A stretch of 41,135 nucleotides of DNA from Verrucomicrobiota bacterium (GTDB lineage: Bacteria; Verrucomicrobiota; Verrucomicrobiia; Palsa-1439): the NCBI GenBank assembly GCA_016871575.1, contig VHCW01000036.1, positions 1 to 41,135 of the forward strand, given 5' to 3'. How positions within the stretch are numbered: position 1 is the stretch's first letter; the number at the start of each line of letters is the position of its first letter. Below are positions 26,037-31,193 of this stretch, piece after piece. Under the pieces are notes generated by a model, which had not been told where the DNA came from, made no database searches, and saw only the letters and a list, made by a program, of their open reading frames with translations. The translations under genes and the position numbers were made by a program.

Positions 26037-26953
26037 TCCTTGCGGACCTCGCGCCACGCGGGGACGGCCTCGCGACAACACGCCACGGCAATCGGACAAC
26101 GCGGATGAAACGGACAACCGCTCGGCGGATTGATCGGCGATGGCACGTCACCGGGCAGGATGATCCTCCGTCGCTGTGTCGCGGGGTCAATTGTCGGCAC
26201 GGAACTGATGAGCGCTTGCGTGTACGGGTGCAGCGGGTTGGCGAGCAGTTCGCCAGCTTCGGCCTCCTCAACGATTCGTCCGAGATACATCACCAGCACC
26301 CGGTCGCTGATGTGCTCGACGACAGCAAGGTCGTGCGCGATGAACAGATACGTCAGCTTCAACTTCTCCTGAAGTTCCTGAAGCAGGTTGACAATCTGCG
26401 CCTGCACGCTCACATCGAGCGCGCTGACCGGCTCGTCGCACACGATGAACTTCGGCTCCACCGCGAGCGCGCGGGCGATGCCGATGCGTTGCCGCTGGCC
26501 GCCGCTGAACTCGTGCGGGTAGCGACGCATGTGGTCCGGCGAGAGACCGACGGCCGTCAACAGTTCGGCCACGCGCTCCGGAACATTACCGGAACACAAT
26601 TTGTGGACGCGCAACGCCTCGCCGACAATGTCGCCGACAGTCATCCGCGGGTTCAGCGACCCGTACGGGTCCTGAAAAATCATCTGCGCCTGCCGGCGGA
26701 AGCTGCCGTCTGTTCCGGAAATGTTCCGGCCGTCGAAGTAAACCTCGCCTTCGGTCGGTTCGTAGAGACGGAGGATGGTGCGTCCGAGTGTTGTCTTGCC
26801 GCAGCCGCTTTCACCGACGAGGCCGACAGTCTCGCCTTCGTTGATGGCGAAGCTAACACCGTCCACGGCCCGGACCCAAGCAACCGGTTTCTGCAGCACA
26901 CCGGCGCGAATCGGGAAATGCACCTTGAGGTTCTTGACTTCGACAAGGCTCAT
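26009..26953 (-). CDS. oppF: oligopeptide/dipeptide ABC transporter ATP-binding protein (OppF/DppF type)
   Basis: 314 residues. Walker [11 protein letters not shown]-loop [14 protein letters not shown], signature [15 protein letters not shown], Walker [13 protein letters not shown], and H-loop [11 protein letters not shown]. The C-terminal oligopeptide-HPY extension has [17 protein letters not shown] 26953 is chosen because it overlaps the stop of the upstream OppD-type gene (ATGA); an ATG at 26974 exists. It would energise import of peptides or similar solutes, but no permease or binding protein gene is in the window. Confidence 0.93.
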
Positions 26954-27921
26954 GGCGTGTTCCAATACGGGCAACGGACACAGCCTTCGAGCAACGCTGG
27001 TTCGGGATCGTGCGCGCAGTCAGGCTTGGCAATCGGACAGCGTGGATGAAACTTGCAGCCGGCAGGGAGGTGCGCGGCGTTTGGCACGGTGCCGGGAATT
27101 GCTTCGAGACGTGCAGTGCGGGCGCCGAGGCGAGGAATCGAACGCATGAGCGCCTTCGTGTACGGGTGACGCGGTTGCTGGAGCAGTGCATCAGCAGGCT
27201 CGTACTCGACAATCCGCCCCGCATACATGACGGCAACATGGTCGGCGAGGCCGGTGAGGATGCCGAGGTTGTGAGTGATAATGAGGATACTCATGCCGAC
27301 GGTGCGCTTGAGTTCCTTCAAGAGGTCGAGCACCTGCGCTTGGATGGTGACATCGAGCGCGGTGGTCGGTTCGTCGGCGATGAGAAGCTCCGGGTTGCAG
27401 GCGAGCGCCATGGCAATCATAACGCGTTGTTGCATGCCGCCGCTGAGTTGGTGCGGGTAATCGCGAGCGCGCTGCGCCGGTTCTGGAATCTGGACGAGCT
27501 TCAGGAGACGAACGACTTCATCGTCGGTCGCAGCGTCGCGCCGATGAAGTTGGAGAACTTCCTTGATCTGGGCACCGATGCGAAAGACCGGGTTCAGCGA
27601 ACTGGACGGTTCCTGGAAGATGTAGGAGATGCGCGCGCCGCGGATGGCACGGAGTTGATCGCTGTTCATGGCGAGGACATCTTCGCCGTCGAGAAGAATC
27701 TGGCCGGCCTTGTAAGCACCCGGTGGTGTTGGGACGAGCTTGGCGAGCGCCAGCGCGGTAACGCTCTTGCCGCAGCCACTCTCGCCGACGAGGGCAAGCG
27801 TCTCACCGCACTTGATCGTGAACGACACGCCGTCCACGGCGCGGACTTCGCCGTCGTCGGTAAAGAAGCTCACGCGCAAGTCGCGCACATTGAGGAGCAG
27901 GTTGTTGGGGCCGGGCTGCAT
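26950..27921 (-). CDS. oppD: oligopeptide/dipeptide ABC transporter ATP-binding protein (OppD/DppD type)
   Basis: 323 residues. Walker [28 protein letters not shown], signature [15 protein letters not shown], Walker [15 protein letters not shown], and H-loop ITHNLGIL, then the C-terminal [14 protein letters not shown]. It pairs with the OppF-type subunit as the usual heterodimer. ATG 27921 is chosen as it begins the domain; the frame upstream runs through the palindrome and has no homology. A candidate promoter lies directly upstream. The larger operon partners (permeases) are missing locally. Confidence 0.93.
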
Positions 27922-27962: not shown

Positions 27963-28002
27963 TGCGCTGCCCGACATCCTCAATTTCAGCTTTCCATAAC
28001 CA

Positions 28003-28042
28003 CCGTAATAATGCTACATATGTAGCGTTATTACGGTACGAC
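28003..28042. repeat. left 40-bp inverted repeat with internal palindrome
   Basis: Read inward from the PaaX gene it runs GTCGTACCGTAATAA, then CGCTACATATGTAGC and ATTATTACGG. Bases 28002-28037 form a 36-bp palindrome centred on CATATG with one mismatched pair (T28012/G28027). The copy at 28851-28890 matches in inverted orientation at 39 of 40 bases. It ends 22 bases before the PaaX ATG and a TAATAAT within it could serve as that gene's -10, so autoregulation is plausible. Confidence 0.85.
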
Positions 28043-28064
28043 ATCTCACAGAAAGGAAATCATC

Positions 28065-28862
28065 ATGGCAAAGGTGTGGAGTGAACAGGCAATAGAGTTT
28101 TTGGAGGTCATGCTCTGGGGAATGGAGAAACTATGTTCTCCATCGTTGCGAACCTTGGACGAAAGTTTCGAGGGGTGGCAGTGGCGGCATGGATGGCAGC
28201 GCCAAGCGCATCGGCTCGAAGAGAAAGAACTCATCCTTCGTGAGCGAAAAGCCGGCCAGTTGGTTCTCCAATTGACCGAACTTGGCCGGCTGGCGGCCTG
28301 TGGCGGGCGCGATCCAGAGGCGCGTTGGCAACGCCGCTGGGACGGCCAGTGGCGGATGATCATTTTCGATCTACCAGGCCGGCAACAACTCGTCCGCCAA
28401 CGCTTGTTACGCTGGTTACGACAAAACGGCTTCGGATACCTGCAAAACAGCGTTTGGATTCATCCGGATCCATTGACGAAAATCACGGATGCCTTGAAGG
28501 AGTTTCGCGACGACGTCGAGTCGTTTACCGTCATGGAGTCACACTGTTGCTCCGGTTATTCCGATGCAGCGATTGTGCATGGCGCGTGGGACTTCGATGA
28601 GGTCAACAAACGATACGAAGCGCATCTCTCACAGGCCAACGGCGACCTGCGCAAGGCGGTGCCCTCGCGGGATGGCGCGGCAGAGTTGCGAAGGCGCTTG
28701 CGGCAGGAACGTATTGCATGGGCCAACGCCGCGGCGATAGATCCGTTTTTACCACAGATTTTGCTGCCGGAGAATTATCTTGGACAACGCGCTTGGCAGA
28801 CCCATCGCTCCGTGATGAGCCGCCTGGTTCAGGCACTGATCGCGCAATCGGTCGTACCGTAA
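28065..28862 (+). CDS. PaaX-like protein (winged helix plus Cas2-like domain)
   Basis: 265 residues. Residues 1-78 form a winged-helix-like region ending LVLQLTELGRLA. Residues about 92-175 are the Cas2-like ferredoxin fold of the PaaX family: WRMIIFDLPG with D102 at the end of the first strand, RQRLLRWLRQNGFGYLQNSVW and IHP. The C-terminal 80 residues resemble the PaaX C-domain (WDFDEVNKRYEAHL, LRQERIAWANAAAIDPFLP). PaaX represses phenylacetate catabolism in E. coli, but no paa gene is here. A good ribosome binding site (GAAAGGA) precedes ATG 28065. The stop codon lies inside the right palindrome, so gene and repeats form one compact unit. It may be an autoregulator, or the unit may be mobile. 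Confidence 0.8.
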   Translation: MAKVWSEQAIEFLEVMLWGMEKLCSPSLRTLDESFEGWQWRHGWQRQAHRLEEKELILRERKAGQLVLQLTELGRLAACGGRDPEARWQRRWDGQWRMIIFDLPGRQQLVRQRLLRWLRQNGFGYLQNSVWIHPDPLTKITDALKEFRDDVESFTVMESHCCSGYSDAAIVHGAWDFDEVNKRYEAHLSQANGDLRKAVPSRDGAAELRRRLRQERIAWANAAAIDPFLPQILLPENYLGQRAWQTHRSVMSRLVQALIAQSVVP

Positions 28863-28890
28863 TAATGCTACATATGTAGCATTATTACGG
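28851..28890. repeat. right 40-bp inverted repeat with internal perfect palindrome
   Basis: Bases 28857-28890 are a perfect 34-bp palindrome: CCGTAATAATGCTACA, TA, then the reverse complement, centred on CATATG. With the inner GTCGTA the repeat matches the left copy inverted, 39 of 40. It covers the last codons and the stop of the PaaX-like gene. No T-run follows, so it is not a standard intrinsic terminator, though it could slow polymerase from either side. The convergent glycoside-hydrolase-like gene ends 38 bases further on. Confidence 0.88.
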
Positions 28891-28928
28891 CACGGAGAAG
28901 GCACGGCACAAACAGCGGCCTTGGACGT

Positions 28929-31193
28929 TCATGGGCGCACGATGCGCGAGGAAATTGCTTCGGGGGCAATTCTAAATCCGCCCGCCGGGATGTTGTCGAA
29001 TGGCGTGGCGCCGAAGTTTACGGTGACGGTGACGCCGTTGGCGAAGCTGGTCTGTTGGACGGCGCGGTCGGGCGTGAGGAATCGGTGGTCAGTCATCTCG
29101 GAGTAACCGGTGGCGCGGGCGACGGGCGCGATGGCGCGATAGCTCTGTACGAAACGATCGCGATTCTTCGTCCAGATGTCGCGATTAAACATGAACATCG
29201 GCGGCGTGCCGTAGAGGACGTTGAACAAGTCGCGCTTGTCCCAGATCGCCGGGAGCTTGTTGTTGTAGTCGCCCCAGTACCATTGCGCGATGACGCAGTC
29301 GTGATAAACCAGTTCCCACAACGGCAACCGATAACGTTCGCCGACTTGGAACTTCGCGACGCGCTCCGGTACCTCGTCCAGAATCACCTGCATCCGCCGG
29401 CCGGCGTCGGGGATGCGATACGGGCCGAGGCTGAGCATGCCTTCGAAGTAATGCAGGAACGGCACCGCTGCGTCGTGGCCGGTTTCACAGCCGACGACGA
29501 GTTTGAACTTCTCCGACATCAACCGCAGTAGTTCCATTTTCCAGTGGCGGCTCTCGCTGCGCGTGAGTGGATGTGCGGGCGCGTAACACTCGCGCCACGG
29601 TGATGCGGTCGTCGTGTCAATGAACCGGCACTTGTACGGATGCGTCGCGAGATCGGCGGGCACGCGTTTCTCGGCGTACTTGAGGGCTTCCTTGTCACAG
29701 GTGACGCCACACGGATACATCTCGCCGTCTTTGCCGGTGACCTGCCAGCCGCGAATCCAATCGCCGCGCGAGTTGATCATGATGTCCTTGGGCCAAGCTT
29801 CTGTCGTCCAGTCACCGTGGACGCCGCGCAGCTTCGGGAACGTCGCTGGGTCCATCACGTCCTGATAAATGTCGTAGCGGCTGGTCAATACACCGAGGTC
29901 ATTCATCGCCGCGATCTCGTTGGGCTTGGCGCTGTGGCTCCAGAGGATCCGCTCGATGCCGGCGGCCTTCAATTCCTTGACGATACTGACCGGGTCCTTG
30001 TCCCAACACCAGATATTGGCGGCGCCGACGAGCAAATCCACGTTCGGATTCTCATGGCGTTTGTCGGCGAGTGTCTTCAACGTCGTGGTTTGGCGGTAAC
30101 GTTTGCACATCGCGACGTGGCCGCCGCGCTCGAAGAAGACATAGCGCAGCTTGCGCTCGTAACCGAAACGTCCCTTCTGCAGGTCCCAACGCGGCGCGAT
30201 GCAGAGCTTGCCGTCGTGACGGTCAATGCTGATCGAGGCATCGTCTGGTGTTTCGATGATCGTCATCTGGCCGCGCTCGCCGTCGGTCGCTCCCCAGAAC
30301 GCCATGCAGATGCCGTGGCCACCGTAGGCGACCAAGCGCATCGGCTTGATGCTGTCGTCGTTCACCGGATACGAAATTCCTTCGTTCATCGGCACGACGA
30401 GATACGTGCTCGCGTCGGTGACGAATGGATGCGGGAACGCCGGAGCGGATGTGCCGTCGGCGTTGAGTGCGACGGTAAACTCCGGTTTGTCGCCGTCGAG
30501 CTTGATCGCGCAGCGGAATGCTTCAGCCGACTCGACATTCATACAATCCAGTTGCAGCCCGCCGGCAACGCGTACTTGTTGGAGCATGATGTTCTCGACG
30601 ACAGCTTGTTGCCGCCACGTCTGCTTCGTGCGGCGGTCGAGCACCGACAACGTTGCCGTTGCGGTGTCGAGCGTGACGACGAGCGCGGCGTTGGTGATCG
30701 CCAGCGTCGCCGGCAAGGCAGCGGCGCGAGATTGCTCGATTTTGCGGCAGGAAAACTCCGAGACCCACACAGTTGCGGGGCCGTGGCCGGTGACGCGAGG
30801 TTCGATGGAGACTCCGCGCCGGGGCACGATGAAACGTGACCGGAGTTCCGTCCAGTCGTGTGTGGCGTGCAGGCTGCGGCCACCGTAGCTCCAACTCAAC
30901 GTTTCCCTGGCTTTGTCGCGGAGAACCGTGCCCGTGGACGCTTCACCGTCGCCAGTAATCTTCACCCACGCGCTGATCTCCCAACATTCGCCGGGCTGCG
31001 TTGCAATCTGACCGCTCTTTGCGGTCAGGCTCCAATCCTTGTCGCCGCGGTGCTCGACGCGGATTGACGGCTGTTGGTTGTGGAGAATCGCAGCGTCCGC
31101 TGCGGCGGTTCCGGCCTTTGGATCGCGCGTCCATATTGGATTCCACTGTTCTGCCGCACAAACACTGGCAAGGAATAGAACGATTAATTTCAT
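28929..31193 (-). CDS. secreted glycoside hydrolase-like protein, family uncertain
   Basis: 754 residues with a signal peptide (MKLIVLFLASVCAAEQ). Residues about 20-155 look like a carbohydrate-binding or jelly-roll domain (WEISAWVKITG, DWTELRSRFIVP). Residues about 160-370 are beta-rich (LVVTLDTATATLSVLDRRTKQTW; AFWGATDGERGQM), and the rest is a probable TIM barrel (DLLVGAANIWCWDK, IERILWSH, YDIYQDVMDP, KLVVGCETGHDAAVP, ALWELVYHDC-like segment, AQWYWGDYNNK). The layout recalls GH101/GH129-like and DUF5696 proteins. Catalytic residues cannot be fixed without alignment. It is last in the nine-gene minus-strand run, with an ATGA overlap to the preceding gene. Confidence 0.65.
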   Translation of the reverse strand: MKLIVLFLASVCAAEQWNPIWTRDPKAGTAAADAAILHNQQPSIRVEHRGDKDWSLTAKSGQIATQPGECWEISAWVKITGDGEASTGTVLRDKARETLSWSYGGRSLHATHDWTELRSRFIVPRRGVSIEPRVTGHGPATVWVSEFSCRKIEQSRAAALPATLAITNAALVVTLDTATATLSVLDRRTKQTWRQQAVVENIMLQQVRVAGGLQLDCMNVESAEAFRCAIKLDGDKPEFTVALNADGTSAPAFPHPFVTDASTYLVVPMNEGISYPVNDDSIKPMRLVAYGGHGICMAFWGATDGERGQMTIIETPDDASISIDRHDGKLCIAPRWDLQKGRFGYERKLRYVFFERGGHVAMCKRYRQTTTLKTLADKRHENPNVDLLVGAANIWCWDKDPVSIVKELKAAGIERILWSHSAKPNEIAAMNDLGVLTSRYDIYQDVMDPATFPKLRGVHGDWTTEAWPKDIMINSRGDWIRGWQVTGKDGEMYPCGVTCDKEALKYAEKRVPADLATHPYKCRFIDTTTASPWRECYAPAHPLTRSESRHWKMELLRLMSEKFKLVVGCETGHDAAVPFLHYFEGMLSLGPYRIPDAGRRMQVILDEVPERVAKFQVGERYRLPLWELVYHDCVIAQWYWGDYNNKLPAIWDKRDLFNVLYGTPPMFMFNRDIWTKNRDRFVQSYRAIAPVARATGYSEMTDHRFLTPDRAVQQTSFANGVTVTVNFGATPFDNIPAGGFRIAPEAISSRIVRP

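Follow-up and report, generated by a model that had tools for sequence, protein, structure and literature searches.

A PaaX-like gene between matched palindromes that recur elsewhere in its genome: a candidate REP/RAYT-like system in Verrucomicrobiota

The window, which is the whole 41,135-nucleotide stretch of Verrucomicrobiota DNA analysed here, contains a small unit in which one gene lies between two matched palindromes. The unit, its parts and the host genes on either side are as follows.

28002..28890, + strand: whole unit (gene and two matched palindromes), 888-889 bp
28002..28037, no strand: left (upstream) palindrome, ACCGTAATAATGCTACATATGTAGCGTTATTACGGT, one mismatched pair
28065..28862, + strand: PaaX-like gene, 265 aa, the single ORF between the repeats
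28332..28556, + strand: segment for the Cas2-like domain (PF20803), residues 90-164, with D102 in FDLP
28853..28894, no strand: right (downstream) palindrome, CGTACCGTAATAATGCTACATATGTAGCATTATTACGGCACG, one mismatched pair
26950..27921, - strand: left neighbour, an oppD-type ABC ATPase; host gene, outside the element
28929..31193, - strand: right neighbour, a GH129-like glycoside hydrolase ORF; host gene, outside the element
About residues 7-70 of the window protein: winged helix, with winged-helix-like secondary structure in the model
Residues 175-256 of the window protein: PaaX_C (PF08223), a Pfam match

The preliminary description had reported 40-bp inverted repeats identical at 39 positions, each containing a palindrome of 34-36 bp, around a single gene whose stop codon lies inside the right repeat, and this description is accurate. 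The arms at 28003-28042 and 28851-28890 (40 nt) are 98% complementary (39/40); because each repeat is a palindrome, they also align directly (28002-28040 with 28856-28894). The left palindrome (28002-28037) is centred 46 bp before the start codon of the PaaX-like gene. Within the right one, positions 28857-28890 form a perfect palindrome of 34 bp that includes the stop codon (28860-28862), and the two palindrome centres are 854 bp apart. The 22-bp palindrome core had no match in 100 shuffled versions of the window. To the left of the unit lie minus-strand oppD/oppF-type ATPases.

The protein belongs to the PaaX family in the broad sense, in that it exceeds the gathering scores of PaaX_M (PF20803, Cas2-like; 1.8e-17, 63.7 bits, cut-off 24) and PaaX_C (PF08223; 5.7e-7, 30.3 bits, cut-off 22). 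The suggested alignment to PaaX families holds for these two domains but not for the PaaX N-terminal domain PF07848, which the window protein did not match in Pfam up to E = 1. The proposed combination of a winged helix with a Cas2-like domain containing D102 is upheld by the PF20803 match and by residues 7-70 of an AlphaFold2 model, which is confident (mean pLDDT 86). The closest solved structures to this model are E. coli W PaaX (3.7e-10) and Rv0674 (1.1e-7), after which another PaaX-like regulator and the Cas2 subunits of Cas1-Cas2 complexes appear at weaker E-values. Canonical PaaX proteins act as repressors. The window protein shares its overall fold and its PaaX_M/PaaX_C domains with E. 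coli W PaaX (PDB 8a39), which represses phenylacetate degradation, but it scores 62.7 bits against the PaaX equivalog TIGR02277, whose curated cut-off is 264.55 bits, and its gene is adjoined by ABC ATPases and the GH129-like ORF. A further difference concerns the Asp of the FDLP motif, which is missing from E. coli PaaX and also from Rv0674. In the present family this residue (D102) is invariant in a 20-sequence alignment, the FD motif including the Asp is kept in 44 of the 44 homologues listed, and the WDGxWR and FDLP motifs of the Cas2-like domain are invariant or nearly so in relatives. With the Cas2 of CRISPR adaptation complexes the protein shares the ferredoxin-like fold of the central domain and a conserved Asp ending the first strand; here, however, the domain is embedded in a winged-helix protein and the unit has no Cas1 partner. 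The Cas2-like domain with its conserved Asp is possibly a nuclease. Scores against Cas2 families themselves are weak, appearing in two relatives (E 0.0004-0.001, below the cut-off). PaaX_M and PaaX_C are the only Pfam families that match the window protein, and the Y1 HUH tyrosine transposase domain (PF01797) is absent. Searches with defence-system and phage families gave no matches, and those for plasmid carriage a single weak one.

The source genome (G000), a 5.19-Mb assembly in which our palindrome census is a lower bound, contains 15 PaaX-like genes, which combine a winged helix with a Cas2-like domain. At least 14 of them are bracketed by a matched palindrome pair whose sequence is specific to each copy (examples of cores are GTGAAATAGGTATTTCAC, GTGTAATAGCTGTTACAC, GGAACGATCGTTCC, GAGACGATCGTCTC and GAAACAATTGTTTC), and the fifteenth, in contig C54 between ruvA and ruvC, has decayed ends that resemble the window's core. 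On an end-alignment score, most PaaX units reach 45-89 and non-PaaX control genes of this genome at most 34. A search for the repeat elsewhere in the genome, as had been recommended, recovered the window palindrome at four sites in other contigs (C13, C14, C50 and C141), and a reversed-pattern control gave no match in the whole genome. In C14 and C50 two window-type palindromes are found 131 bp and 134 bp apart, respectively, and the C13 copy lies in frame inside rsmB. When all copies are taken together, at least 25 sites (28 palindromes) are located away from any PaaX gene; six of the 15 PaaX copies have no such solo palindrome among the candidates scored. Doublets are spaced by 131, 134 and 164 bp in this genome and by about 200 bp in G146 and G026. 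We considered that doublets might be internal deletions of the unit and rejected this, as the C14 and C50 spacers match neither the unit nor each other. A solo in contig C61 reproduces the imperfect downstream palindrome of the C1 unit exactly over 46 bp, and the DNA beyond it is unrelated; this suggests that what moves is the palindrome itself. Two observations concern the boundary between palindromes and reading frames: a solo in contig C46 (L101:2617-2654) overlaps a host ORF at its end, where it seems to provide the final codons and the stop, and a PaaX-like ORF in contig C4 (L024:1459-2346) reads on across its downstream palindrome, which would fit a lost stop codon.

Comparison of orthologous loci revealed unoccupied counterparts. 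No PaaX-like gene is present in a same-genus relative (G001; 96% complete), and its fabI/gamma-carbonic-anhydrase, aldo-keto reductase/ispH and coaX junctions are free of the palindromes that are present at these three solo or doublet sites in the source genome; likewise, its ruvA-ruvC junction is without the whole C54 unit. As this is a genus-level relative, the flanks of the unoccupied sites do not align base by base. The right neighbour of the window unit is not syntenic in this relative, and because it differs, no empty site was found for the window unit. Within genes, a 42-bp palindrome lies in frame in miaA, whose protein is longer at this point than in 10 of 10 aligned relatives, and in another genome (G092) a palindrome lies in frame in the GH2 domain of a GH2 gene. 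The rsmB palindrome is also in frame, in a length-variable stretch that is 9-10 codons shorter in three relatives; other relatives have a stretch of equal length, and so this case is ambiguous by itself. From these comparisons, the palindromes appear to have been inserted at the sites where the source genome now has them, with mobility deduced by comparing different species. A CA dinucleotide does lie at both outer edges of the window unit, as had been pointed out, but as a target duplication it finds no support: over 46 solo copies the target-site duplication measure averaged 0.98 against a null of 0.90, which is no signal and which sets the system apart from a classical insertion sequence. 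Flank symmetry was not systematic either (1.69 of 6 positions symmetric, about 1.5 expected). Insertion into pre-existing palindromes was rejected as a rule; one site, in contig C31 (L106:2591-2664), stands out, where a solo occupies the loop of a hairpin with 14-bp arms (CCGCCAACCTTTCC / GGAAAGGTTGGCGG), like a terminator-loop insertion, and it is the sole such case.

PaaX-like genes occur in 32 of 384 genomes of the class. A matched palindrome pair scoring at least 17 is present in 33 of the 47 distinct homologues from the class, and one of these pairs (that of L024) was set by hand as its ORF reads through the right palindrome; in a null of 300 mispaired ends the 95th percentile was 12 and the maximum 19. 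The centre-to-centre distance across homologues is mostly 824-903 bp, and start codons are usually preceded by the upstream palindrome at 20-70 bp. We searched 17 palindromes from 13 other carriers against 14 genomes, and among the matches listed all were to the resident palindrome of the genome's own PaaX copy; none of the seventeen was found in the PaaX-free G001. Palindromes lie away from the gene in at least nine of the 13 carriers and only at the unit in three (G036, G044 and G207). Dispersal is not an assembly artefact, because G092, in which palindromes are dispersed, is a one-contig genome. Protein distance and palindrome half-site distance are correlated (Mantel r 0.38-0.43, p<=1e-4), and in the tree the copies of the source genome are interleaved with copies from other genomes. 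The arrangement is shared by the family and is not an oddity of one genome, and in our reading the window unit belongs to a group of small elements with REP/RAYT-like behaviour. Some units depart from the usual arrangement: the matched palindrome is unusually far from the gene upstream in L044 and L188 and downstream in L049 and L205, and in L044 a second palindrome between the gene and the far one makes a doublet beside the unit. A short, distant PaaX-like gene from a scan of public genomes (L009) has no matched palindrome pair. Separately, the carrier G159 has 62 Y1 transposase matches, a RAYT/IS200-type expansion beside its PaaX system.

That the palindromes have spread and are linked to the PaaX-like gene is well supported; what has to be weighed is the role of the protein. 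If it were an ordinary PaaX-like repressor, the flanking palindromes would be its own operators and the dispersed ones operators of target genes. This agrees with the family names and the nearest solved structures, which are those of PaaX repressors, with palindromes that fit a dimeric winged-helix protein, with the co-divergence of protein and palindrome, and with the usual placement of the upstream palindrome just ahead of the start codon. We nevertheless consider it improbable, given the in-gene palindromes of rsmB, miaA and a GH2 gene, the unrelated doublet spacers, the second copy behind the gene in most homologues and the unoccupied sites in a relative without the regulator. The 25 sites in the source genome fall between tandem genes in 15 cases, between convergent genes in five and between divergent genes in only three, with two inside genes; set against the intergenic DNA of the same stretches (64% tandem, 9% convergent and 27% divergent, with genes called by script), this distribution reveals no promoter preference. 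A two-operator loop controlling the neighbouring genes, which had been offered as one of two readings, accordingly lacks support as the main explanation. The other, a one-gene mobile or selfish element with palindromic termini, gains support from the further copies, the patchy occurrence, the unoccupied sites in a relative and the in-gene palindromes. What had been named as refuting it, a repeat confined to this locus with neither empty sites nor further copies, is not what we found. It is mainly the palindrome alone, however, and not the 888-bp unit, that multiplies. Regulation of the PaaX-like gene itself by its upstream palindrome is plausible and compatible with mobility.

Mobility could also come from elsewhere. 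The palindromes might owe their movement to a different enzyme, such as a Y1/RAYT-type transposase, or to hairpin replication slippage, and the PaaX-like protein might only bind them as a regulator, silencer or passenger. Hairpin DNA is the usual substrate of Y1 transposases, these are present in 11 of 12 carriers tested (with eight matches in the source genome), and target duplication is missing here as it is for Y1 elements. We regard such a division of labour as unlikely, as almost all PaaX copies lie between palindromes whose sequence follows that of the copy, and as G002, which has no Y1 match although it is only 75% complete, has 31 palindrome matches. Least probable in our view, and only a slight prospect, is that the whole unit is mobile and that solos are scars left when recombination between the end repeats deleted the gene, as in solo LTRs. 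Near-identical ends that are direct as well as inverted repeats, solos that amount to exactly one palindrome and the unoccupied counterpart of one whole unit are all in keeping with this; however, the nearest paralogue to the window copy in the source genome has only 52% identity while solos are up to 100% identical, which argues that whole units have not multiplied recently. In addition, the spacers of doublets are unrelated, and passage through an 880-bp stage would have disrupted both rsmB and miaA.

We therefore favour, with moderate confidence, a REP/RAYT-like system: the PaaX-like protein would recognise its palindrome and cause it to be inserted in trans. The mobile module would be the palindrome, roughly 34-50 bp in length. 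The protein, probably a dimer on this two-fold symmetric site, would recognise the palindrome between whose two copies its gene sits, with the winged helix as the reader and the Cas2-fold domain, through its conserved Asp, as a possible nuclease. New copies of the palindrome would then arise at other places, either alone or in doublets with a spacing of about 130-200 bp, and without target duplication; the gene would stay at about one copy per palindrome family as palindromes multiply in trans. Binding of the palindrome, catalysis of movement by this protein and not another enzyme, and a nuclease role of the Cas2-like domain are thus steps that we infer. We know of no transposase activity in the PaaX fold. 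That winged-helix, Cas2-fold proteins are a new class of DNA mobility enzyme, which recognises and inserts short palindromes and so creates REP-like populations in many genomes of one class of bacteria, is a proposition for which we see the case as evenly balanced; if true, PaaX repressors would share ancestry with mobile-element proteins.

Among known systems, REP/REPIN sequences with their RAYT (TnpA-REP) genes, or REPtrons, are similar in several respects: a gene is bracketed by palindromes, the same palindromes are dispersed as singlets and doublets that are mostly intergenic and sometimes in genes, and gene and repeat are matched to each other (PMC3116915, PMC3733652, PMC8266576). RAYT/REPIN populations have roughly one resident gene alongside several to many solos (PMC3116915), and the same structure in each palindrome family here suggests that the protein would recognise and insert the palindrome in trans. 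The best reading, by analogy, is that the role of the Y1 tyrosine transposase is filled here by a winged-helix, Cas2-fold protein. The differences are that the protein is of the PaaX family and not a Y1 HUH enzyme and that the palindromes are near-perfect and 34-50 bp in length. In a REPIN, a short conserved spacer separates two palindromes of inverted order; doublets occur here as well, but the spacers of those in C14 and C50 are unrelated to each other and to the unit. Among the copies displayed, no GTAG end tag is common to the palindrome families. Because the defining transposase is absent, we do not class the PaaX-palindrome system as a RAYT/REPtron, but it works like one. TIRtrons (TIRYT genes with long terminal inverted repeats) likewise have a bracketed gene and a modest dispersed repeat family (PMC3733652). 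Their protein is a tyrosine transposase, to which the present protein is unrelated. For Rickettsia palindromic elements (RPE) we know of no gene that they bracket, whereas a candidate partner gene is seen here. The likeness lies in short palindromic DNA placed in frame within protein-coding genes (PMC3733652).

In the open-licence literature we found no relevant paper that connects PaaX with Cas2 or with DNA of a palindromic or mobile kind. To our knowledge, all short mobile palindromes with a known partner enzyme rely on Y1 tyrosine transposases; a second, unrelated partner protein would amount to an independent origin of REP-like systems, and the Cas2 fold and the PaaX regulators would gain a possible relative among mobile elements. 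Some annotated PaaX-family regulators may, by the same token, be mobile-element proteins. The source genome offers 14 protein-palindrome pairs, and the class dozens, as a test set for the co-evolution of DNA-binding specificity with a mobile repeat. As a last observation, several families of short mobile palindromes, CGTC REPs among them, have been reported without a dedicated transposase (PMC3733652), and the palindromes of two families in the source genome (L022 in contig C11 and L051 in contig C4) have CGTC at their ends, recalling these REPs and making a link between them possible.
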